Below are positions 2,123-32,671 of a stretch of DNA of 34,410 nt, one piece after another. A model generated the notes under the pieces. The model was given only the letters and a program-made list of their open reading frames with translations. It did not search any database and was not told the origin of the DNA. Every line of letters starts with the position of its first letter. Positions within the stretch are counted from its first letter, which is position 1. This stretch comes from Gammaproteobacteria bacterium (GTDB taxonomy: Bacteria; Pseudomonadota; Gammaproteobacteria; Pseudomonadales; Azotimanducaceae). Position numbers and translations under genes: made by a program. Location: NCBI GenBank assembly GCA_026706665.1, contig JAPOYI010000180.1:1-34410 (forward strand), in the 5' to 3' direction.

Positions 2123-3265
2123 CTATCCCGGCATGCAGTCAGCCCACCGCTGCATTACAAGCCGTCGCTTCTCCAGCAGATCATCCCGCGCGTAGGCCGC
2201 GACCGTTGCCGAGCCCTCGACGTGTGCCAGCGCGAACTCCGAAAGCAGCTCGTCCACGTCATGTTCTCGCGCCCAGTCCTTGAAGCTCGACCGGAACCCG
2301 TGGCCCGACGCCGCGATCCCCGCCTGGCGCAGCGCCTGCGTCATCACCTTGTCGCCCACCATCGCCCCCGGACGCGAGCCGGGGAACGCCAGACCGCCGC
2401 CGCGCACGTCCGCGCGCGCCTCCCGAAGCAGGTCCAGTGCCTGGGTGGACAGGGGCACCCGGTGCGCCTTGCCCGTCTTCATCGACTCCGCGGGCTTCGT
2501 CCATACCGCCGCCTCGAGGTCGAACTGCTCCCAGGTCGCCCGCCGCACCTCGATCTGCCGCGCCGCCGTCAGGGCCGTGAACCGGATCGCCCGCTTCGTC
2601 GAGGACGCGCAGTTCGTGGCGTCGATCTTCGCCAGCGCAGCGCCCACCTCCGACCAGTGCAGGGCGTCGTGATGCTTCGGACCCGCCGCCCGCTTCGTCA
2701 GGCTCCGGCGCACAATCTCCACCGGCGAGCCCTCCGACCGGTACTCGTTGATCCGCGCCCACTCCAGCACCGACGTGATCGCCGCCCCCGCGGTCTTCGC
2801 CACCGCGTGCTTGCCAGAAAGGGCTATCGGGCGCAGGACCTCGTACACCGCCGCGCTGCCCACCTGGTCCACCGGCATGCCCCCCAGCTTCGGCAGCACG
2901 TACCTGTCCACCGCCATGCGCCAGTTGCGCGACGGGCTCTTCGTCCGCCAGGTCTCCAGCTTCTCCGTGAAGCACCCTTCCTCCGCCTTGGCGAAGGTTG
3001 GCGCCCGAACGCGCCGGGGATCTCCTCCCGTTCGTGCGATCGCTCTATTGTCCGCCGCCGTTCGTCGTGCGTCGGCCAGCCGCACCAGCTCCGCGCTACC
3101 CAGCCCGAGATCGACGCGGCGGCCGTGTATGGTCAGGCGCTGTATCCACTGGCGCGTGCCGCGCTTCGTCACCCGCAGCATGAGGCCGTTGCCATCGACA
3201 TAGCTGCCGGGAGCGGCGGTGCGCACCATTGCGGCGGAAAGGGCGTTGCGGCATAGTCGCGGCAT
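2123..3265 (-). CDS. P4-type tyrosine integrase with DUF4102 arm-binding domain
   Basis: A 380-aa phage/island integrase. The N-terminal segment (about residues 10-85; DGNGLMLRVTKRGTRQWIQ, then LGLGSAELVRLADARR and GGDPRR) is a DUF4102-type arm-DNA-binding domain. The catalytic residues are Arg236 (TAARQIEVRR), Lys263 (MKTGKAHRVPL), His322 and Arg325 (GHGFRSSF), His348 (LAHVEG) and Tyr358 (VAAYARDDLLEKRR). The start at 3265 is chosen by homology, since the open frame runs on to 3601 without family-like sequence. Its upstream region holds an 11-bp direct repeat that could be arm-type sites. Such integrases mark genomic islands, often at a tRNA, but I see no tRNA or att duplication here. The frame is intact. 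Confidence 0.9.
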   Translation of the reverse strand: MPRLCRNALSAAMVRTAAPGSYVDGNGLMLRVTKRGTRQWIQRLTIHGRRVDLGLGSAELVRLADARRTAADNRAIARTGGDPRRVRAPTFAKAEEGCFTEKLETWRTKSPSRNWRMAVDRYVLPKLGGMPVDQVGSAAVYEVLRPIALSGKHAVAKTAGAAITSVLEWARINEYRSEGSPVEIVRRSLTKRAAGPKHHDALHWSEVGAALAKIDATNCASSTKRAIRFTALTAARQIEVRRATWEQFDLEAAVWTKPAESMKTGKAHRVPLSTQALDLLREARADVRGGGLAFPGSRPGAMVGDKVMTQALRQAGIAASGHGFRSSFKDWAREHDVDELLSEFALAHVEGSATVAAYARDDLLEKRRLVMQRWADCMPG

Positions 3266-3516
3266 CGGGGCAGGTTCCGTGAGAGTGTCTGCGGAGCCTA
3301 CATCACGCGTAGGATGAACACAATGAATCCCACAAAAAACCGCGCTGGTAGCGATGTGTTGCGCATCTTTGTGAGTCGCAGTCCCGGCGCGATCATTACC
3401 AAAAAGGTATTTATTATCAAAAAGGTATACTACTTCTTGACGCTCTGTGGGCTTGCGTGCACATGTGCCTAGGCGGTTGCAGGCGACTGTACGGCGCAGT
3501 CCCCTAGCCGCGTGAC
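3266..3516. other. Integrase/ACAD divergent intergenic region
   Basis: A 251-nt region, more AT-rich than its surroundings. It contains the 11-bp direct repeat described separately and presumably the divergent promoters for the P4-type integrase and the acyl-CoA dehydrogenase. No clear -35/-10 pair could be fixed for either gene. Confidence 0.5.
3400..3428 (+). repeat. Two direct copies of CAAAAAGGTAT, 18-bp period
   Basis: CAAAAAGGTAT occurs at 3400-3410 and 3418-3428 in an AT-rich patch upstream of the minus-strand integrase. Position and spacing fit arm-type integrase or excisionase sites, or a repressor operator; the role is inferred. Confidence 0.7.
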
Positions 3517-4620
3517 GTGCCGGAACTGCTGACGCCGGAACTGTCGCGACTACGCGACGAGACGGATGCGTTCGCGCGGGACGTGCTGGCGCCCCTTGCA
3601 ACCGAGTTTCCCGCCAGCCGGAAACGGATCATCGACGCCTCGAAGGCGGCCGGGCTGTTCTTCATGACCCAGCCAAGGGCCTTCGGCGGCAGTGAGGCGA
3701 GCACGCCGGCCATGACCGTGGCACGGGACACGCTGGCAAGTCACAACCTGTCCCATTTGCCCGTCTTCGGTCCCGGGCCCGGCGTGCTGGCGGGCGTTGG
3801 CGAACCCCTCAAGAGCAGCCACCTCGCCCCCCTCATGGCCGGCAAGAAACGCGGTGCCTTCGCCTTCACCGAACCCGACGACGCCCCCCATCCCACTAGT
3901 GGACGCGTCGAGGGCAATACGTTGACGATCAATGGTCAGAAATCCTATGTGACCGGCGGCGCCCAGGCGGACTTCGTCGCCGCGCTGGTGGAAGTCGAGG
4001 GCGGAGGCCCCGCCATGGTCGTGATCGACACAGACGCGGCCGGCGTCAGGACGAGGGAGGTCTTCAGTTCCCTCGACGGCACGCAACACGCCTGGTTCGA
4101 GTTCGACAACGTCCGCGTCCCGGCGGCGCACATCGTGGGCAAGCCGGGCGAAGGCCTGCCCCGGGCCCTTCGACAGATCGGCGACATTCGCATCAGCGTC
4201 GCAGCCGAGTCCGTCGGCCTCATGCGCTGGGTGCTCGACTACCTGACCTCACACCTGGAAGTGCCGCACCGCAGCGGAACTCCGCTCGGGCGCCGGGAAG
4301 GCGTGCGGCTGCGCTACGCCGACCTGCGCATCAAGGCCTATGCCGCGCGCAGCATGGTCTACCGCACGGCCCGGCTCGCCGATGCCGGCGAGAACACGGT
4401 GAACGAAGCCATCGCGTGCAAGGTCTTCGCAACGGAAGCCGTGGGCGACGTCGTCGACACCGCCATTCAACTCGTGGGCGGCAGGGCGCTGACGGTCGGG
4501 CATCCCCTTGAAACCCTGTATCGACGCGTTCGCGCGCTGCGCCTCGCGGAAGGCGCGAACGACATCCTGCGACTGAACCTTGCCCGGGGGCGGCTTGACC
4601 TGGACAAGGGCCGAATCTGA
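3517..4620 (+). CDS. Acyl-CoA dehydrogenase family protein
   Basis: A 367-aa flavoprotein of the ACAD superfamily, expected to oxidise an acyl-CoA at the alpha-beta bond with FAD and pass electrons to ETF. The N-terminal helical domain starts directly (PELLTPELSRLRDETDAFA). The FAD/substrate signature is seen at about residues 112-121 (GAFAFTEPDD) and the C-terminal helical domain from about 225. Glu345 in LAEGANDILR is the candidate catalytic base at the position used in short/branched-chain enzymes. The start is GTG at 3517; an in-frame stop lies at 3505-3507 and no better start exists. No strong ribosome binding site is seen. The stop overlaps the ATG of the M16 protease gene by 1 nt, so the two are probably translated together. 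The substrate is unknown. Confidence 0.85.
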   Translation: MPELLTPELSRLRDETDAFARDVLAPLATEFPASRKRIIDASKAAGLFFMTQPRAFGGSEASTPAMTVARDTLASHNLSHLPVFGPGPGVLAGVGEPLKSSHLAPLMAGKKRGAFAFTEPDDAPHPTSGRVEGNTLTINGQKSYVTGGAQADFVAALVEVEGGGPAMVVIDTDAAGVRTREVFSSLDGTQHAWFEFDNVRVPAAHIVGKPGEGLPRALRQIGDIRISVAAESVGLMRWVLDYLTSHLEVPHRSGTPLGRREGVRLRYADLRIKAYAARSMVYRTARLADAGENTVNEAIACKVFATEAVGDVVDTAIQLVGGRALTVGHPLETLYRRVRALRLAEGANDILRLNLARGRLDLDKGRI

Positions 4621-22044: not shown

Positions 22045-22152
22045 CAGGGCACCAGAAACTCGAGAAAGGTGATTGGATGGCCGATCATTGTGCGCGAGCA
22101 GCGAAAGCGCGACACTCAGGCACATTTCTCGAAAGCGGCTATCGAACCACGC

Positions 22153-23136
22153 ATGAGTGACGGCAGGTTTCCTTGCGGACATGGTGACGAACCGACACGG
22201 GTCGCCTTCCTGATGACGCGGGACTACACCATCGTGACGCTCACCAGCGCGATCGCCGTGTTGCGCATGGCCAACCGGTTGAGCGAGCGCCAGCTCTATC
22301 GCTGGACCTGCCTGACCCTCGATGGCAAACCGGTACCATCCAGCGACGGTTTGCGCCTCGTACCCGACGGGGAAGCAGGTTCCCTCGATCGGCCGGATAT
22401 GCTGTTCGTCTGCGGCGGCTACCACTGCGAGCGGCACTGCAGCAGGGTGTTGCTCGACACGTTGCACGGCTTCGCCAAGCGCGGCGTGCCCCTGGGCGCG
22501 CTTTGCACCGGTTCACACTTCCTCGCCGCCGCGGGACTTCTGGACGGCTACCGCTGCGCGATCCACTGGGAAAACCTGTCCAGCCTGCGCGAGCAGTTCC
22601 CCCGCGTACATGTATCGTCCCGGCTGTTCGAGATCGACCGCGACCGTTTCACGTGTTCGGGCGGGATCAGTTCCATCGACATGATGCTGAACCTGGTCCA
22701 GGCCGCCCATGGACAGGAACTGGCGCGGGACATTACCGAGCAGATCATCCTCGAGCGAGTGCGCACCGAGAACGACATGCAGCGGACGCCGCTGCACCAT
22801 CAGCTCGGCGCCGTGAACCAGCAAAGCCTGGTCGATGCCGTCGCCCTGATGGAAGCCAACATCGAGGAACCGCTGACCCTCGGCGAGGTGGCCGAATACA
22901 CGGATATCTCGTCGCGCCAGCTCGAGCGCCTGTTTCACGAGTACCTGGAATGCACGCCGTCCCGCTACTACCTGGACCTGCGGCTGAACCAGGGCCGCCT
23001 GCTGCTGCTGCAGACCAGCATGTCGGTCACCGAAATCGCCTCCCGGTGCGGATTCTCGACCGCCGCGCGGTTCGGAAAATCCTACGTCGCAAAGTACGGA
23101 AAACGGCCAACCGACGAGCGTCGTCCAGCACCCTGA
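22153..23136 (+). CDS. GATase1-like/AraC-type transcriptional regulator (GbdR/CdhR-type)
   Basis: A 327-aa regulator. The N-terminal half is a DJ-1/PfpI-type class I glutamine amidotransferase-like sensor domain (about residues 15-190; LFVCGGYHCERHC, ALCTGSHFLAAAGLLDG). The C-terminal half has two AraC helix-turn-helix motifs (about 220-325; LTLGEVAEYTDISSRQLERL and MSVTEIASRCGFSTAARFGK). In Pseudomonas this architecture includes GbdR, SouR, CdhR and ArgR, which sense betaine, sarcosine, carnitine and arginine. That fits the methyl-catabolism genes downstream. The start at 22153 matches the usual family N-terminus; a GTG at 22069 is in frame but adds unrelated sequence. It is divergent from the TonB receptor gene and may control both sides. 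Confidence 0.87.
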   Translation: MSDGRFPCGHGDEPTRVAFLMTRDYTIVTLTSAIAVLRMANRLSERQLYRWTCLTLDGKPVPSSDGLRLVPDGEAGSLDRPDMLFVCGGYHCERHCSRVLLDTLHGFAKRGVPLGALCTGSHFLAAAGLLDGYRCAIHWENLSSLREQFPRVHVSSRLFEIDRDRFTCSGGISSIDMMLNLVQAAHGQELARDITEQIILERVRTENDMQRTPLHHQLGAVNQQSLVDAVALMEANIEEPLTLGEVAEYTDISSRQLERLFHEYLECTPSRYYLDLRLNQGRLLLLQTSMSVTEIASRCGFSTAARFGKSYVAKYGKRPTDERRPAP

Positions 23137-23437
23137 CCAGCACACCGAAAACGTGCGATCCGAGGCGTTTTCGGATGTCGCTTTTCGACTATTCGGTGTC
23201 GCCTGAATCGGCGTCCCGGCGCGGGTTCCGGACCCAGCCCCGGCGGGAATCCGAGCACGGGGCGGATCTCGCGCAAAATCGGCCGGAGATGTAGCGCCGC
23301 CCACGGGTCGCCTCGCGACCAATCGATGTCGCCTTTGGCAGCAATGGTACACGCGAGTTCAGGCAATCTGCCGCCGGTTGCCGACACGGGCGGGTGGCCC
23401 GAAGAGGCGATCTCCAATTCGGTCCAAGGGGAGTCAC
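23137..23437. other. 301-nt leader region before the methyl-catabolism operon
   Basis: There is no gene here. It holds a 9-bp inverted repeat (23145-23174) after the regulator gene and the ribosome binding site AAGGGG just before the demethylase start at 23438. It must contain the promoter if the downstream genes are transcribed apart from the regulator. I could not recognise a glycine, SAM or tetrahydrofolate riboswitch. Confidence 0.5.
23145..23174 (+). terminator. Inverted repeat after regulator gene, possible terminator
   Basis: CCGAAAACG (23145-23153) pairs with CGTTTTCGG (23166-23174) across a 12-nt loop, just after the regulator stop. No uninterrupted T-run follows at once, so it could equally be an operator for the downstream promoter. 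Confidence 0.35.
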
Positions 23438-24784
23438 ATGACCACTGATACGGGCGATAACGGAGTCGTTCGGTATTCCGGCCTGCGCCAATGCGCGAGC
23501 GTCGACCAGTCGGACCGAAAAGTTCCGATCAACCTTCGCCAGTCGGGCCCCACCCCGGTTGGACTCCTCATCTCGACCCGCGTGCGCAAGTCACCGTACT
23601 GGCATCTCTCCATGGAGGCGGGCTGCTGGCGGGCAACGGTCTACAACCGCGTTTATCACCCTCGCGGCTACGTGCGACCGGAAGACGGCGGCGCCATGGC
23701 GGAATACGACGCTCTGGTCAACCACGTGACCCTATGGAACGTGGCGGTGGAGCGGCAGATCCAGGTCAAGGGACCGGACGCGGAGAAGTTCGTCAACCAC
23801 GTCATCACGCGCGACGCCACCCGCATCGCGCCGATGCGCGGCAAATACGTCATTCTCTGCAACGAAGACGGCGGCGTACTGAACGACCCCGTGCTGCTGC
23901 GGGTCGCCGATGACGAGTTCTGGTTCTCTCTCGCCGACAGCGATATCGAGATGTGGCTCAGGGGCGTCAACCTGGGGCTTCACTGCAATGTCGGAATCGC
24001 CGAGATCGATGTCGCGCCCGTGCAGATCCAGGGTCCGAAGTCGGAAGCGCTGATGGTGGACCTCTTCGGCGAGCGGGTGCGCGACATTCCCTACTACGGC
24101 CTCATGGAAGGCCAGGTGAACGGTCGCGACGTCATCGTCTCGCAAACCGGGTTTACCGGCGAGAAGGGCTACGAGATCTATCTCGGGGACGCGACCCTCT
24201 ACGCGGAAGACCTCTGGTACGGGGTGCTCGAGGCAGGTGAGCGACATCAGCTCTTGGTCACGGCCCCGGCCCACCACCGTCGCATTGCCGCCGGGATCCT
24301 GTCCTGGGGCCAGGACCTGGACCAGGAAACCCTGCCCTTCCAGTGCAACCTCGGCTACCAGGTTCCGCGCAGAAAGCAGGCGGACTACGTTGGCAAGCGG
24401 GCGCTCGAAGCGGCAAGGCGCGCCGTGGAGGCCAGCGCTCCCCCTTTTCGCAACGTGCTCGTCGGTATCGTCTTCGGCGGTCGTCCAGTGACCGACTACG
24501 CCAACGACTTCTGGCTCATTTCCTCGAGCGCCGGAGACGATCACGTGGGCTACGTCACTTCGCCGTGGTTCTCCCCGGAACTCGAGACCAACATCGCGTT
24601 GGCCTACGTCCCGTGGGAAATGCGCGATGTCGGGACCGGGCTGCGCGTGCATCTTCCACCCGAATACGCCGAGCGTCCCGGCGAACCGGTGGACGGCGAG
24701 ATTGTGGAAGTGCCGTTTCGTCCGTCGGTTAACCCGAACATCCGGGAAGTGGCGCGAAGCCGCGGTCGCGACAGCGTCGACTGA
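23438..24784 (+). CDS. GcvT-family demethylase, DmdA-like
   Basis: A 448-aa tetrahydrofolate-dependent aminomethyltransferase-fold protein (GCV_T plus GCV_T_C). From about residue 45 the text follows the DMSP demethylase DmdA pattern: [10 protein letters not shown], a TVYN segment, [40 protein letters not shown], then [12 protein letters not shown]. The predicted reaction is transfer of a methyl group from a sulfonium or ammonium compound to tetrahydrofolate, giving 5-methyl-THF. The next gene, encoding a MetF-FTHFS fusion, would use that product. A 40-residue N-terminal extension precedes the domain. The ATG at 23438 has AAGGGG 6 nt upstream. DMSP versus a betaine as substrate cannot be settled from sequence. 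The nearby betaine-type regulator and dimethylglycine dehydrogenase argue for a wider methylated-amine role. Confidence 0.78.
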
Positions 24785-24789
24785 AAGCC

Positions 24790-27354
24790 ATGGATGCGTT
24801 GTACGACAGCGTCGCCGCGCTCAATGCGATAGACATGCTGGACACGCAACGAGAGCTGGTCCGGCACGCCTCGGTAGAACTCTCGCCCCGGCAACTGGTA
24901 TCGACGGGCCCGCTCACGGACTACCTGTCCCGCGGAACGCGGGTCTACATCCCATCCATCCCGGGCGCCGCGTGGCGGGAAACCATGGCCGCCTGCCAGC
25001 GCCTCACCGCGGAGGCCATGCTGCCTGTGCCCCACCTGCCCGCACGATTGATGAAGAGCGAGGCGCAACTGGACAACAGGCTGGGCGAACTCGCCGAAGC
25101 AGACGTCAGCGAACTGTTGCTGGTCGCTGGCGACCACGAGCGCGCGGCGGGCCCTTACCGGGATACGCTCGACGTGCTCGAGTCCGGCAAGCTCGTCGAG
25201 CACGGCTTCCGCCGCCTCGGCGTCACCGCTTACCCGGAAGGACATCCCCTGGCGGCGCGCGGGGAACTCGAAGCGGCCCTGTCTCGAAAGATCGCCTACG
25301 CGAGCGCCACCGATACCCATATGTGGATCGTCACGCAGTTCACCTTCGCATCGGCACACGCCATCGCCTGGCTCGCGGCGATGCGGGATCGGGGCTGTCC
25401 GCTGCCGGTCTACATCGGCCTGCCGGGGCCTGCCCGGCTGCGCACCCTGTTGGCGTACGCCGCACACTGCGGCGTACGCGCCTCCGCGCGGGCGCTGACC
25501 CGGCAACCCAGCGTAATACGGTTGCTGAAGAGCTGGTCGCCGGACGAACTGCTGCAGGGGTTGGCGCAATACCGGGTTGAGTCCACCGGCACGACTCTCA
25601 CCGGTATCCATCTGTTTACCTTCGGCGGGCTGCCCCGCACGTCCCGCTGGCTGCGCGCCAACGGGGCGACAACCCGAAATGTTGCCGCTTCCCCCGCAAC
25701 CGCCCCGGAAGTCGCCCGCAATGTTCCCGGTCTGCGTCCCATCATTCCCCTGGCCGAAGCGCGCCTCGGCATCGGGCCGCATCTGCTGACACCCTACGGG
25801 CACTACAAGGCAAAGCTGTCACTCGCCGAGACCGGCCTGGCGCCGAAAAAGGATGGCAAACTGGTGCTGGTCACCGCCATCTCGCCGACCGCCGCCGGCG
25901 AAGGCAAGACCACCACCAGCATCGGGCTCACCGATGCGCTCAACCTGCTCGGCGCGCGGGCCGCGGCCTGTCTGCGCGAACCGTCGCTCGGCCCCTGTTT
26001 CGGAATGAAGGGCGGCGCAACCGGCGGCGGCCGGGCCCGGGTCATGCCGGAGACGGACATCAACCTGCATTTCAACGGCGACATGCACGCCATCTCGACG
26101 GCGCACAACCTGCTCGCCGCCGTTGTCGACAGTCACCTCTACTGGAAAAACCCGCTCGACATCGACCCGGATACGATCTCCTGGCGCCGCGTCATGGACC
26201 TCAACGACCGCGCGTTGCGCGAGGTGGAACTCAACCTCGGCCGCGGCGCCCACCGCTCCAGCGGTTTCGATATCACCGCCGCGTCCGAAGTCATGGCCGT
26301 GCTCTGCCTTGCGAACGACACCGAGGACCTGCAGCAGCGCCTCGGCCGCATCGTCGTCGCCCGCGACCGGAAGGGCGATCCGGTCACGGCCAGTGACCTC
26401 GGCGTCGACGGGGCGATGGCCGCCGTGCTCAGCGATGCCCTGCAACCGAACATCGTGCAAACCCTCGAAGGCAACGTGGCCTTCATTCATGGCGGCCCCT
26501 TCGCCAACATCGCCCACGGCTGCAACTCGGTTGTCGCAACGCGGAGAGCCCTCGGGCTTTCTGACGTAGTGGTCACCGAAGCGGGCTTCGGGGCAGACCT
26601 GGGTGCGGAGAAGTTCCTCGACATCAAGTGCCGCCAATCCGGCCTGCGTCCGGATGCGGCGGTGCTGGTGTGCACGGTCCGGGCACTCAAGCTGCACGGT
26701 GGAGCCGAGCAGCGCGACCTCGAGAAACCGGACGCGGCAGCCGTTCGCGCCGGGGCGCCGAACCTTGGGCGTCATGTCGCAAACCTCAAAAGGTATGGCT
26801 TGAAGCCCGTAATCGCGATCAACCGCTTCGACACGGATACCGACGACGAGATTGCCGCCATTCGGGCGATCGCCAACCAATACGGCATCGAAGCGGTCGT
26901 AGCTACCCATTGGGCGGACGGCGGCGCCGGGGCCACGACGCTGGCTCGTGCCGTGCTCGACAGCTTCGAACAGGGCTCCCCGACGGTCGAACTGCTCTAC
27001 CCGGACGATATTCCCCTGCGGGACAAGATCGAGGCGATCGCGACCGGTCTCTACGGCGCTTCCGGGATATCGGTGAGTTCAACCGCCGCAGGCCAGCTCG
27101 ATGCGTTCGAAAAGCTCGGCTATGGCCATCTTCCGGTCTGCATCGCGAAGACGCAATACAGCTTCTCCGCCGACCCGAAAGCCAGGGGCGCGCCAGAGGG
27201 CCACGTGCTCCCGGTCAGGGAGGCGCGACTCGCCGCCGGGGCCGGATTTGTCGTCGTCATCTGCGGAGACATCATGACGATGCCCGGCCTGCCGCGCCGC
27301 CCCGCCGCCCTCGATGTCGGGGTTGACGCGCAGGGGCAGGTCACCGGACTGTAG
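24790..27354 (+). CDS. Fusion of methylenetetrahydrofolate reductase and formate-tetrahydrofolate ligase
   Basis: One uninterrupted 854-codon frame. Residues about 20-290 are a MetF-type TIM barrel: Glu30 (ASVELSPR), Asp115 in [22 protein letters not shown], Gln183 in VTQFTF, and [10 protein letters not shown]. Residues about 308-854 are a full-length formate-tetrahydrofolate ligase: GHYKAKLSL, the ATP loop [11 protein letters not shown] (366-376), [14 protein letters not shown], and the closing [15 protein letters not shown] short Ala/Thr-rich linker (about 291-308) joins them. In an oxidative direction the first half would turn methyl-THF into methylene-THF, and the second would release formate from 10-formyl-THF with ATP formation. 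The step between, normally done by FolD, is not in the protein. The gene starts 5 nt after the demethylase stop. Confidence 0.9.
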
Positions 27355-27372: not shown

Positions 27373-28203
27373 GTGAACACGGCGGTGGCGTTCGAACGTT
27401 GGAGACCCGGAACAACGCCACGGCGCTTAAGCGAAACATTGTTCGACGGCGCATTGATCGTATTCGACGGCCTGAGGCCCGTCGCGCGACTGGTGGACCG
27501 CGTGCGGGCAATCCTCGCGGAGACCTTCGAGACGGAGGAATCCGCCGTCGCCGAGCGCCACCTGTCTGCCGTGACATTTCGCCGCCTGGCAATACAGGCG
27601 CGCGAGGCGGTCGCCACCGATGCGGCCGTTGTCCGGCATTGGTGGGACGCGCTGGCGGTGATCGGCTACCGGCGGGAGGCGACCTGGCTCGACCAGATCC
27701 GGTTGCGCGTCGTCCCGTCACGGGGCGATATCGAACACCAGCGCCTGCAGGCGGTGCCCCCGCACAGGGATACGTGGGGATCCGGCATCATGGCCCAGAT
27801 CAACTGGTGGTTGCCGCTGTATCCACTGGCCGAGAGCAGCACGATGTTGCTCTGGCCGGACGTCTTTCGTCATCCCATCGCGAACAATAGCGGTGAGTGG
27901 AGCTTCGAAGCGTTCAGGAACGGCAGAGAGAACGGCTATCCGCTGCTTCCGGTTGCCTGCAGGCGCCCCGTCCAGCCCCGGGCGCCCGTGCTCATCGAGC
28001 CCGGCCAACTGTTAGGCTTTTCGGCTGCGCACCTGCACGCTGGTGTGAGCGATGCATCGGGGCGGACCCGCTTCGGCGTCGATACGCGCTCGGTGTGGGA
28101 ACCGGACCGCAGCGCGGGCCGCGGCGCGCCGAACGTGGACGGCGCGGCCCGGGAAGAGATGTGGCGCTGGTTCCGCCCGCCAAGGGTCAACGGGGAACGG
28201 TAG
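27373..28203 (+). CDS. 2-oxoglutarate/Fe(II) oxygenase-like protein
   Basis: A 276-aa protein whose centre resembles PhyH-like non-haem iron oxygenases. The iron triad is probably His131 and Asp133 (PPHRDTWG) with His220 or His222 (FSAAHLHAGV). Arg233 (GRTRFGVDTR) would bind 2-oxoglutarate. The segment AQINWWLPLYPL between them fits the double-stranded beta-helix. The start is GTG; no strong ribosome binding site is seen. It lies 18 nt after the fusion gene and directly abuts the dehydrogenase gene (TAG then ATG), so it belongs to the operon. A role in oxidative demethylation or hydroxylation of the methylated substrate is plausible but inferred. The N-terminal 80 residues have no recognised motif. 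Confidence 0.65.
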   Translation: MNTAVAFERWRPGTTPRRLSETLFDGALIVFDGLRPVARLVDRVRAILAETFETEESAVAERHLSAVTFRRLAIQAREAVATDAAVVRHWWDALAVIGYRREATWLDQIRLRVVPSRGDIEHQRLQAVPPHRDTWGSGIMAQINWWLPLYPLAESSTMLLWPDVFRHPIANNSGEWSFEAFRNGRENGYPLLPVACRRPVQPRAPVLIEPGQLLGFSAAHLHAGVSDASGRTRFGVDTRSVWEPDRSAGRGAPNVDGAAREEMWRWFRPPRVNGER

Positions 28204-30636
28204 ATGGCGCAACATGCCAGAGTCGTGGTCATCGGCGGCGGAGTCGTCGGCGTCGCGACGCTCTATCACCTGGCGGCCAAGGGCTGGTCGGACGTGGCGC
28301 TGCTGGAGCGCAAGGAACTGACGTCCGGGGCGACCTGGCACGCCGCCGGCCTGTTGCCGCTGTTCAACATGAGCTACTCGGTGGGTCAGATTCACAAGTA
28401 CTCGGTGAATCTCTACCGCCGGCTCGCGGAGGAGACCGGCGACGACGTGGGTCTGCGCACCGTCGGCAACATACGCCTCGCCATGACGCCGGACCGGATG
28501 GACGAATACCGCCAGTACGCCGGCGTCGCCAAAACGATCGGCGTCAACGTCGAGTACCTCACCCCCGACGAGGTCTGCGAGATCTGGCCACTGGCGGTCA
28601 CCGACGGCCTCATCGGCGCCATCCGCCACCCCGACGACGGTTACATTCAGCCCGCCGATCTCACTCAGGCCCTGGCCCGGGGCGCCCGCGCCAGGGGCGC
28701 GGTAATCCATCGCCAGACCTGCGTGACGGGTATCGAACAGACTTCCAGCGGCGAGTGGCTCGTGCGGACCGACAAAAGCGACTGGATCGCCGAGCACGTC
28801 GTCTCCGCCACGGGCAACTTCGCGCGGCGCACCGGCGCCATGATCGGCCTCGATATCCCGGTGCTGCCGGTACAGCACCAGTACATCGTCACCGAGACGC
28901 ATCCCGATATCCTTGCCCGACACGCTGAGGGTTGGCCGGAGATGGGCGTCTTGCGCGAATCCGACGGCTCCTGGTACATGCGCGAAGAAGCCGGCGGGCT
29001 GCTGCTCGGGCCGTACGAGAAAGGAGCTCCAGCGTGCTACCTGGACGGCCCGGACGCAGAGAGCGAGTACGAACTCTTCAACGACGACATCGACCGCCTG
29101 ATGCCGCACATCGAGTCGGCCATTCACCGCGTGCCCGCGTTCGCCGAGTTGGGCATCAAGCAGGTCTACAACGGCGCCATCGCCTATACCCCCGATGGCA
29201 GCCCCATCATCGGGCCGGCCTGGGACAGGCGCAATTTCTGGCTCAACGAGGGCCACAGCTTCGGCATCACCGCCGCCGCCGGCGCAGGCTGGCAGCTTGC
29301 CGAGTGGATCGTCGAAGGCGAGCCCACCATCGACATGCTCGGCGTCGACCCGCGCCGTTTCGGCGACTACGCCACCGGCGCCTATCTCAAGACCAAGAAC
29401 GAAGAGGCCTACGCCAACGTGTTCACGGTGCACTATCCCGACGAGGAGCGGCCCGCCGCGCGACCGCTGCGCACGGCTCCGTGCTACGGGCGGATGCGGG
29501 ACCTGGGCGCGGTGTTCGGGCAGAAGTTCGGCTGGGAGCGGCCGAACTGGTTCGCGCCGGAGGGCGTCGCCCAGGAAGACCACTGGTCGTTCCGCCGCTC
29601 GCGCTGGTTCGAGCCCGTGGGCGAAGAATGCCGCAACGTTCGCGACAACGTCGGCCTGCTCGACATGACCGCCTTTGCCAAGGCCCGTGTCAGCGGTCCG
29701 GGCGCCGCGGCGTTTCTCGACGGTTTCGTCGCCAATCGCCTGCCGAGGACGGGCCGCATCGGCCTCTGCCACGCGCTCAACTCGCTGGGCGGCGTGCACT
29801 CCGAGTTCACCATCCACCGGGAGGCGGCGGATCGCTTCTACCTGGTTTCGGCCGGGGCCTTCCAGCGGCTGGACCACGACTTTCTGCGGCGCCAGATGCC
29901 GACGGATGGATCGGTCATTTTCGAGAACCTCACGGCCGCCATGGGCGTGCTGGTCATCGCCGGACCGAAATCCCGCGAACTCCTTTCTCGCGTCTGCGAC
30001 ACCGACCTCGGGAACGCCGCGTTCCGTTGGCTGACCGGCAAGGACGCGACCATCGGCCTCGCGCCCGTAAAGCTCCTGCGGCTCAATTTCGTCGGCGAAC
30101 TCGGCTGGGAGATCCACCACGGCATCGAGTACCAGAACACCATCTTCGACGCGCTGATGGAGGCCGGGACCGACCTGGGCTTGAGGCCCTTCGGCATCCG
30201 CGCCATGGACTCGCTCCGCGTCGAGAAGTCCTACCGCATGATCGGCTCGGAAATGTCCATCGAGTACGCGGCCCTGGAATCCGGCCTCGACCGATTCGTT
30301 CGCCTCGACAAGGGCGACTTCGTGGGCCGCGCCGGACTCCTCGAATGGCACCAGCGCGGATTCGCCAACTGTTTCGTCACGCTGGCGGTGGACGGTCCGG
30401 AAGATGCCGATCCCATCGGCAACAACCCGCTTTACGTCGACGGGCGGATGGTCGGCAGGGCTACCAGCGGCAACTACGGCTTCCGGCTCGAGCAGTCCAT
30501 CGCGCTGGCGATGGTGCGCCCGGAGCTCGCCGAGATCGGCACCGCGGTCGACATCGAGATTCTCGGCGAGAGATACCCCGCACGCGTGGTGCAGGAAAGT
30601 CCCTGGGATCCCGACAACGCGCGGTTGCGCGCGTGA
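28204..30636 (+). CDS. Dimethylglycine/sarcosine dehydrogenase-like flavoprotein with GcvT domain
   Basis: An 810-aa protein with the DMGDH/SARDH layout. An N-terminal DAO-type FAD domain carries VVVIGGGVVGVATLYHL with Gly11, Gly13 and Gly16. His46 in GATWHAAG is at the site of covalent FAD attachment in mitochondrial dimethylglycine and sarcosine dehydrogenases. An FAO_M linker (about 375-430) follows, then a GcvT fold (about 435-700) and GCV_T_C (about 715-800). Known relatives oxidatively demethylate dimethylglycine or sarcosine and pass the one-carbon unit to THF as methylene-THF. That product can enter the same folate pool as the fusion enzyme. The stop TGA shares its last base with the first unit of the 44-bp repeat array. 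Confidence 0.9.
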   Translation: MAQHARVVVIGGGVVGVATLYHLAAKGWSDVALLERKELTSGATWHAAGLLPLFNMSYSVGQIHKYSVNLYRRLAEETGDDVGLRTVGNIRLAMTPDRMDEYRQYAGVAKTIGVNVEYLTPDEVCEIWPLAVTDGLIGAIRHPDDGYIQPADLTQALARGARARGAVIHRQTCVTGIEQTSSGEWLVRTDKSDWIAEHVVSATGNFARRTGAMIGLDIPVLPVQHQYIVTETHPDILARHAEGWPEMGVLRESDGSWYMREEAGGLLLGPYEKGAPACYLDGPDAESEYELFNDDIDRLMPHIESAIHRVPAFAELGIKQVYNGAIAYTPDGSPIIGPAWDRRNFWLNEGHSFGITAAAGAGWQLAEWIVEGEPTIDMLGVDPRRFGDYATGAYLKTKNEEAYANVFTVHYPDEERPAARPLRTAPCYGRMRDLGAVFGQKFGWERPNWFAPEGVAQEDHWSFRRSRWFEPVGEECRNVRDNVGLLDMTAFAKARVSGPGAAAFLDGFVANRLPRTGRIGLCHALNSLGGVHSEFTIHREAADRFYLVSAGAFQRLDHDFLRRQMPTDGSVIFENLTAAMGVLVIAGPKSRELLSRVCDTDLGNAAFRWLTGKDATIGLAPVKLLRLNFVGELGWEIHHGIEYQNTIFDALMEAGTDLGLRPFGIRAMDSLRVEKSYRMIGSEMSIEYAALESGLDRFVRLDKGDFVGRAGLLEWHQRGFANCFVTLAVDGPEDADPIGNNPLYVDGRMVGRATSGNYGFRLEQSIALAMVRPELAEIGTAVDIEILGERYPARVVQESPWDPDNARLRA

Positions 30637-31129: not shown

Positions 31130-32671
31130 ATGGCAAGACGATCAGGCGGTAGACGGGCGCGCAAGGCCCAGCGCGCCGCGCCCCTGGCCGAAGCGGCCAA
31201 GCCGGTCCGGCCGGGACACATCGGCGGACAGTTCCAGCCCCTGTCCGCGGACGGCGTCGAGGCCATCGTGGAAAACGCGTTCAGGATCCTGGACCGTGTG
31301 GGTTTCGCCGACGCCACGCCCCGCTGCATCGAAACCTGCACCGCGGTCGGCGCCGTGCTCGGCGACGACGGGCGTCTGCGCATGCCGCGAAGCCTGGTCG
31401 AACGGACGTTGCAGCTTGCCCGCCGGAACCTGGTGCTGCACGGCCAGGACCCGCGGTGGGACCTGAGCTTAAGCGGCGCGAAGGTGCACTTCTCCACCGC
31501 CGGCGCCGCGGTCATGGTGGCGGACTCGGACAACGACCTTTACCGGGACTCCGAGGCGCAGGATCTCTACGACATGGCGCGCATCGCGGACACCTGCGAG
31601 CACATTCACATGTTTCAGCGGACCTGTGTTCCCCGGGACGTTCCCGACAACTACGCGCTGGATATCAATACGCTCTACTGCTGCGTGATGGGCACCAGCA
31701 AGCACGTCGGTTCGAGCTGGACCATCGGTCCGCACGTCGAGAAGAGCCTCGAGATGCTGCACATGATCGCGGGCGGCGAAGCTGAGTGGCGGGCGCGCCC
31801 CTTCGTTAGCCAGTCCAACTGCTTCGTCGTGCCGCCGCTCAAGTTCGCCACCGATGCCCTCGAATGCCTGCGCGTCGCGGTCGAGGGCGGCATGCCGGTA
31901 TTGCTGCTGTCGGCGGGCCAGGCCGGCGCGACGGCGCCCGCCTATCTTGCCGGGACGGTCTCCCAGGCCTGGGCGGAGTGCCTCGGCGGACTGGTCTACG
32001 TGAACGCCATCGAACCCGGCGCGCCGGCGATTCTCGGCGCCTGGCCGTTCGTCTCGGACCTGCGCACCGGGGCGATGAGCGGTGGCTCGCCAGAGCAGGG
32101 CCTGCTATCCGCCGCCTGCGCCCAGGTCGGCAACCACCTCGACCTGCCCTTCGGCACCGCCTGCGGCATGAGCGATGCCAAGTTTCCGGACTTTCAGGCG
32201 GGCGCGGAACGTGGTTCAACGGTGCTGGCAGCCGCTCTGTCCGGGGCGAACATCGTCTATGAAGCCGCGGGCATGTACGCCAGCCTGTTGGGCACTTGCC
32301 CTGAGAGCCTGGTGCTGGACAACGACCTGCTTGGCGCTGTCGGGCGCGCTACCCGCGGGATCGAGGTTAACTCCGACACGTTGAGCTTCGCCGAGATCGA
32401 ACAGATCTGCAGCAGCGGAGAAGGCCATTACCTGGGATCCGCGAACACCCTGCAGGTGATGCAGAGCGAGTACTTCTATCCGGACTTCAGCGACCGCACC
32501 AGCCCCAACGTCTGGGAGGAACTGGGCAAGCCGGTGCTGCTGCAGGAGGCAATCAAGAAGACGCGGGATATCCTCGCCACCCACGTGCCCCGGCACGTCA
32601 GCGACGAGGTCGACGCGCGAGTGCGGGCGGAGTTTCCAGTCTTTCTTTCTCCTGCGGCGATGGGGCGCTGA
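31130..32671 (+). CDS. MttB-superfamily (trimethylamine/betaine) methyltransferase, non-pyrrolysine
   Basis: A 513-aa TIM-barrel methyltransferase of the MttB superfamily, of normal length. Segments such as FSTAGAAVMVADSD, FVSQSNCFVVPPLKF, ECLRVAVEGGMPV, GAMSGGSPEQGLL and LPFGTACGMSDAKFPD are typical. The frame has no internal TAG, so it is not a pyrrolysine enzyme. Relatives without pyrrolysine demethylate quaternary amines such as glycine betaine, proline betaine or carnitine, giving the methyl to a corrinoid protein. No corrinoid protein gene is present in the window. The start at 31130 is supported by AGGGAG 7 nt upstream. The first 25 residues are basic and atypical. It is probably the end of the methyl-catabolism operon, after the repeat array. 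Confidence 0.88.
   Translation: MARRSGGRRARKAQRAAPLAEAAKPVRPGHIGGQFQPLSADGVEAIVENAFRILDRVGFADATPRCIETCTAVGAVLGDDGRLRMPRSLVERTLQLARRNLVLHGQDPRWDLSLSGAKVHFSTAGAAVMVADSDNDLYRDSEAQDLYDMARIADTCEHIHMFQRTCVPRDVPDNYALDINTLYCCVMGTSKHVGSSWTIGPHVEKSLEMLHMIAGGEAEWRARPFVSQSNCFVVPPLKFATDALECLRVAVEGGMPVLLLSAGQAGATAPAYLAGTVSQAWAECLGGLVYVNAIEPGAPAILGAWPFVSDLRTGAMSGGSPEQGLLSAACAQVGNHLDLPFGTACGMSDAKFPDFQAGAERGSTVLAAALSGANIVYEAAGMYASLLGTCPESLVLDNDLLGAVGRATRGIEVNSDTLSFAEIEQICSSGEGHYLGSANTLQVMQSEYFYPDFSDRTSPNVWEELGKPVLLQEAIKKTRDILATHVPRHVSDEVDARVRAEFPVFLSPAAMGR

Follow-up and report, generated by a model that had tools for sequence, protein, structure and literature searches.

The window analyzed here is the whole of a 34,410-nucleotide stretch of gammaproteobacterial DNA. 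On its plus strand, positions 24790-27354 hold one open frame of 854 codons (854 aa), which begins with ATG, contains zero internal stops and encodes, as the original prediction had proposed, an MTHFR (methylenetetrahydrofolate reductase) domain and an FTHFS (formate-tetrahydrofolate ligase) domain in a single chain. The MTHFR domain covers residues 23-288 (24856-25653, plus strand) and is followed by a disordered linker (residues 293-313; 25666-25728, plus strand) and by the FTHFS domain (residues 314-854, 541 residues; 25729-27351, plus strand).

The FTHFS half matched Pfam PF01268 above the gathering score (E 3e-238, 792.1 bits, profile positions 11-555 of 556), aligned over its full length with solved FTHFS structures and shared 45-65% identity with free enzymes outside the genus in our order and phylum samples. 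The P-loop lysine and the LREPS arginine, which we take to have the roles usually given to them in FTHFS, were present in 51 of 51 aligned sequences. Judged by its sequence, the FTHFS domain is complete, with predicted ligase activity.

The N-terminal half gave no Pfam match at E 1e-3, was not reported by a PF02219 search of its own genome, and scored 29.8 bits with the NCBIfam model of canonical MetF (TIGR00676), below the curated cut-off of 293.7. A phmmer search against PDB sequences matched residues 23-288 to 7xg9 and 7xlf at 4e-42, with the Thermus MTHFR far behind (7e-8). According to the names in the Foldseek result, both entries are the MTHFR of Sphingobium sp. SYK-6. Foldseek on the first part of our structural model gave a TM-score, by target length, of 0.85-0.86 for 7xg9 and 0.70-0.72 for E. 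coli 1b5t. Residues E30, D115, Q183, and H274 were found in all eight fused copies; over all 82 alignment rows, the motif columns held E in 81 (one gap), D in 67, and Q in 82, and these residues presumably play their accepted roles in MTHFR. Sequence and modeled fold place the N-terminal half in the MTHFR family, yet remote from textbook MetF, with the SYK-6 enzyme as its nearest solved relative.

An AlphaFold2 model of the monomer without FolD (mean pLDDT 78.5, pTM 0.60) consisted of two folded parts joined by a disordered linker (pLDDT below 50), with further weak stretches within FTHFS and at its end. The second part matched FTHFS structures with TM-scores, by target length, of 0.87-0.89, and with such a linker and pTM the orientation of the domains in the model was undefined. 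The description of the linker as short and Ala/Thr-rich held for the window's species but not among relatives, where both length and letters differ: the distance from FGGL to YGH[YH]KAKL was 58, 67-69, or 86 residues in the eight fused copies. We therefore rejected an Ala/Thr linker as a signature of the fusion.

Conservation, distribution, and origin of the fusion

We found the fusion in eight of the nine genomes of the genus, in each as the sole FTHFS match. In the ninth genome (64% complete), FTHFS had no match and the demethylase matched remotely at best (26%). Three of the genomes with the fusion are single contigs (G002, G004, and G008); in G002 and G008, the halves came up as separate matches but share one 912-codon frame. 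Within the genus, the fusion persisted even where the MTHFR halves had diverged to 47-48% identity. Simple dN/dS estimates from seven pairs ranged from 0.10 to 0.28 for the MTHFR part and from 0.07 to 0.27 for the FTHFS part; both halves are under purifying selection. The linker gave values from 0.10 to 2.7, with 28-56 codons, few sites, and gaps in several pairs.

In the window's copy and in L039, no in-frame ATG, GTG, or TTG occurs from residue 278 to residue 358, a stretch that runs 23 residues beyond the first letter of the conserved FTHFS motif YGHYKAK. Thus, in these two copies, the ligase is without an obvious start of its own in that region. The remaining six fused copies do have such codons there and may use an internal FTHFS start. 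The doubt attached to the original prediction, a frameshift or a missing stop between the halves, found no evidence in its favor. Because the same arrangement recurs in eight genomes, three of them single-contig, and because FTHFS has no start of its own in the window and L039, we consider it extremely improbable that an assembly or sequencing error removed a stop or shifted the frame.

A search for relatives of the MTHFR half found 174, and the best 80 loci of these 174 were examined. MTHFR and FTHFS were both present in 50 loci. The seven fused ones all belong to the window's genus and come from the same genomes as G001-G005, G007, and G008; in the remaining 43, the two are separate neighboring genes. 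Outside the genus, no fusion was seen among 97 relatives (the nine of the genus included), in 293 genomes of the order (two fused, both of the window's genus), or among the matches listed for 397 genomes of the phylum (where the window's copy was the sole case), in samples that overlap and with few candidates scored per genome. Two FTHFS frames of more than 900 codons outside the genus (G130 and G713) came without a reported MTHFR match at the thresholds and candidate caps applied. Among 147 matching plasmid records, none had one place covering 80% of the query. Nor did an MTHFR-FTHFS fusion appear in the literature among the matches listed. The fusion is a genuine, narrowly distributed single-chain architecture; the architecture is new, and the activities of its components are known.

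The unfused sets, found in Marinobacter, Enterovibrio, Grimontia, Roseospira, and gammaproteobacterial MAGs, resemble the window in having the same three genes, demethylase, MTHFR, and FTHFS, in the same order, but differ in that the genes are separate. Identity to the window's FTHFS was 61-66% in the four named genera and 73-75% in those of the MAG loci L044-L052 that were aligned. In 42 of the 43 unfused loci, the MTHFR stop and a candidate FTHFS start were at most about 120 bases apart, the exception being L101, in which FTHFS is split between two frames. If the listed ATG starts are used, the two genes share about 4 or 20 bases in several Marinobacter loci. Because the separate genes are close or possibly overlapping, the loss of one stop together with alignment of the frames would suffice to join them. 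The best account of the fusion is such a stop loss between two genes of a known operon type, in which the stop between adjacent, often overlapping genes would have been lost.

Whether this happened once or twice was addressed with trees, from which fourteen Marinobacter loci were left out in the case of the FTHFS, MTHFR, and three-gene alignments. The single-gene trees did not reject one fused clade (p-AU 0.237 for FTHFS and 0.162 for MTHFR). The three-gene concatenate rejected it (p-AU 0.0004), because the unfused loci L044-L053 fall between two fused groups. An RpoB tree, with 22 rows from 25 genomes (two without a match and one partial match dropped; several rows partial), grouped its five fused genomes together (97*) and set the ten genomes of L044-L053 apart as a separate clade (99*). 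Thus, either a single fusion with conflicting gene trees or two separate fusions may have taken place; the RpoB grouping fits a single event, while the three-gene tree prefers two.

Alternatively, a single lineage may have fixed the stop loss without the fused chain working any better than separate enzymes. Unfused neighbors are the common state, the listed starts in several Marinobacter loci imply overlapping genes, and the linker varies freely, all of which favors a neutral event. Against it, the fusion is kept in all eight genomes of the genus in which an FTHFS was found, across the divergence of the MTHFR half given above. We regard a neutral origin as a serious possibility, though one that we would not bet on.

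The adjacent demethylase and its neighborhood

The fusion had been described as standing directly behind a demethylase, and it does. The upstream gene (DEM; 23438-24784, plus strand) encodes a putative GcvT/DmdA-like THF-dependent demethylase (PF01571, 1.2e-39). Its start was chosen by eye in an ORF that opens at 23378, and five bases separate its stop at 24784 from the ATG of the fusion at 24790. The closest solved relative of DEM by sequence is the DMSP demethylase DmdA (PDB 3tfh, 5e-42). However, DEM reached 262.2 bits with the DmdA model PRK12486, below the cut-off of 410, and the tryptophan of the SGW motif of DmdA, which we take to be a DMSP contact, is replaced by phenylalanine in all eight fused loci and in 61 of 63 sequences overall (tryptophan in the other two). 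Thus, we rejected DmdA as a name for DEM. Its substrate is most likely the osmolyte glycine betaine, as suggested by the neighboring genes. A second demethylase, 36-37% identical to that of the operon, was present in G008 (C1:2408322-2409377) and G002 (C1:3290477-3291532) and is possibly a true DmdA. For L003, L005, and L006, a triple fusion of demethylase, MTHFR, and FTHFS was considered on account of long open frames ahead of the fusion; it was rejected because the upstream residues are not demethylase-like and the demethylase lies in another, overlapping frame.

Upstream of DEM lies a gene for a GbdR-like AraC/DJ-1 regulator (22069-23136, plus strand; NF052371, 393.4 bits, below the cut-off of 480). 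Downstream of the fusion, a 276-aa protein without a Pfam or NCBIfam match at E 1e-3 (27373-28203, plus strand) is followed by a dimethylglycine/sarcosine dehydrogenase-like protein (DMGDH) with the Pfam domains DAO, FAO_M, and GCV_T (28204-30636, plus strand). The 276-aa protein has a homologue in 11 of 49 three-gene loci and, by eye, an HxD...H pattern resembling Fe/2-oxoglutarate oxygenases.

We then surveyed the neighbors of these 49 loci, which have demethylase, MTHFR, and FTHFS, in flanks of up to 7 kb, with SoxA and SoxB from L096, DgcA from L092, and serine dehydratase from L085 as additional queries. Homologues of GbdR were found in 39 loci, DMGDH in 26 (at least 250 bits), SoxB in 6, SoxA in 1, DgcA in 4, and serine dehydratase in 12. 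At least one of GbdR, DMGDH, SoxA, SoxB, and DgcA was present in 45 of the 49 loci and absent from the flanks in 4. The corresponding counts were 4 of 11 for loci that have demethylase and MTHFR but lack FTHFS, and 6 of 20 for filter-passing loci with MTHFR but no demethylase. The four three-gene loci without any of the five, and the count of 4 in 11, weigh against glycine betaine as the substrate. In L096 and L104, the gene order is demethylase, MTHFR, DMGDH, SoxB, SoxA. The GbdR-like regulator, the dimethylglycine dehydrogenase, and, in relatives, the sarcosine oxidase point to glycine betaine catabolism, and these neighbors suggest that the operon is best read as serving the catabolism of glycine betaine and dimethylglycine.

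A gene for an MTTB-family methyltransferase lies further downstream (31130-32671, plus strand; PF06253, 5.7e-109). Its score of 320.9 bits is below the trimethylamine methyltransferase cut-off of 525, and the protein could be a betaine methyltransferase of the MtgB type, a possibility that counts against the betaine reading of DEM. It had a match in six of the nine genomes of the genus and none in the single-contig genomes G002 and G008, which keep the demethylase, the fusion, and DMGDH; thus, the MTTB protein is no constant partner of the operon. Two phage-integrase family genes near one contig end (835-1956, plus strand, and 2126-3601, minus strand) possibly mark an island border.

In the available part of PMC12478193, the mechanism of the first betaine step in marine bacteria is described as unknown before the Mtg route, save for a predicted Pelagibacter gene. 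The same text reports that Ruegeria pomeroyi raised its production of a MetF paralogue when supplied with glycine betaine. The MtgBCD and MetF2 system of that organism resembles the present one, as the betaine methyl group passes to THF and a dedicated MetF paralogue is proposed to oxidize methyl-THF; it differs in that methyl transfer is cobalamin-dependent, and no fusion is mentioned in that part of the paper (PMC12478193). Among the matches listed, we did not find a THF-dependent glycine betaine demethylase in the literature, and none is described in the available portions of PMC3691474 and PMC7487153. The unfused gene set is a candidate for a THF-dependent first step by which Marinobacter, Vibrionaceae, and other proteobacteria would degrade glycine betaine. 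Some of these hosts may already possess a different first step, because DgcA, a later step of the Rieske route GbcAB, is reported from most Marinobacter species and from Grimontia and Enterovibrio (PMC12093977, as far as its accessible text goes).

Proposed direction and role of the fused enzyme

In the pathway that we propose, DEM would methylate THF, with glycine betaine as the most likely methyl donor, and the fused MTHFR domain would oxidize the resulting methyl-THF to methylene-THF. FolD, encoded elsewhere, would convert this to 10-formyl-THF, from which the fused FTHFS domain, acting in reverse, would release formate and make ATP. The THF left by FTHFS would return to DEM and to the enzymes acting on dimethylglycine and sarcosine. 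We consider it fairly probable that the fusion is such a catabolic bifunctional enzyme, combining the first and last steps from methyl-THF to formate and ATP. Its main gain would probably be a fixed 1:1 dosage and the co-localization of the entry and exit enzymes.

The closest known counterpart is found in Sphingobium lignivorans SYK-6, in which a reversed MTHFR is reported to oxidize the methyl-THF made by the T-protein-like demethylase LigM (PMC12585457). The genes ligM, metF, and ligH (FTHFS) of SYK-6 are numbered consecutively by locus tag, and KT2440 could grow on vanillate through LigM only with MetF, LigH, and a host mutation, according to the available part of PMC12997858. The two systems share a GcvT-like THF demethylase, an MTHFR that is oxidative in SYK-6 and probably so here, and an FTHFS. 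The SYK-6 set, however, consists of three separate proteins and serves aromatic O-demethylation, whereas here MTHFR and FTHFS are joined, in a context that points to the catabolism of glycine betaine. In SAR11, methyl-THF oxidation via metF, folD, and fhs has been proposed, and an aminomethyltransferase gene adjoins metF (PMC3160333, available part).

The oxidative direction, already suspected from the position of the fusion, is favored by two further points: the closest solved relative of the MTHFR half is the SYK-6 enzyme, and the window's genome carries three other MTHFR-family genes, one of them clearly canonical (G000:C117, 274.5 bits). Both observations, together with the gene order with the demethylase and the GbdR-like regulator, argue against a biosynthetic role, in which FTHFS would make formyl-THF from formate and MTHFR would supply methyl-THF for methionine. 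The MTHFR and FTHFS reactions are both reversible in principle, and the fused FTHFS is the only one found, which leaves some room for a biosynthetic role; on balance, we judge it quite unlikely.

The distribution of PurU bears on the same question. None was found above the cut-off in the single-contig genomes G002, G004, and G008, so that FTHFS is the only recognized route there from formyl-THF to formate; in the window's genome, PurU gave only short matches below the cut-off. PurU above the cut-off was present in four of the nine genomes (G001, G003, G005, and G007), which counts against the catabolic reading, and FTHFS may run forward instead.

FolD was represented above the cut-off by one gene in seven of the nine genomes, never near the fusion: it lay more than 700 kb away in the three single-contig genomes and on a different contig in the others. 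The remaining two genomes, which are 71% and 64% complete, had no match. This location, together with a linker too poorly conserved in length and sequence to offer a docking motif, and a monomer model without FolD that gives no reliable domain orientation, speaks against a metabolon, raised as an idea in the original prediction, in which the chain would bind FolD between its domains and channel folate from methyl-THF to formate. On the other side, the fused steps are non-consecutive, so that FolD must act between them, and a flexible linker would permit its binding. We therefore view channeling through a bound FolD as unlikely. A bolder form of the catabolic reading is a cobalamin-free, oxygen-independent pathway of betaine demethylation, in which the demethylase would feed methyl-THF to the fused MTHFR-FTHFS scaffold and, with FolD recruited, an FTHFS oligomer carrying MTHFR domains would turn methyl groups into formate and ATP as a one-particle machine; this, too, appears improbable to us.

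C1-THF synthase (MTHFD1) consists of a FolD-like domain and FTHFS. Like the window's fusion, it has a folate redox enzyme N-terminal to FTHFS. However, MTHFD1 fuses consecutive steps, while here FolD is skipped and MTHFR stands in its place. By uniting two steps that are not neighbors on the folate ladder, the fusion offers a natural test of whether it makes a difference to co-localize the entry and exit enzymes while the middle enzyme is free.

Relatives of the MTHFR half also occurred in other arrangements. In G079 (L022:6554-10039), an MTHFR remnant without the part matching query residues 67-246 lies between the demethylase and the FTHFS frame, and a second MTHFR-like copy is found elsewhere (L023); a full-length MTHFR gene occupies that place in three members of the same genus group, G138, G169, and G351. 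Gemmatimonadota and some gammaproteobacterial MAG loci (L056, L058, L061, L079, L080, L083, L088, and others) have the MTHFR relative in a locus that lacks FTHFS. L082, L083, and L088 have their demethylase on the opposite strand, and in L056 the MTHFR relative adjoins a gene resembling gamma-butyrobetaine or 2-trimethylaminoethylphosphonate dioxygenase, with scores below the cut-offs of the models.
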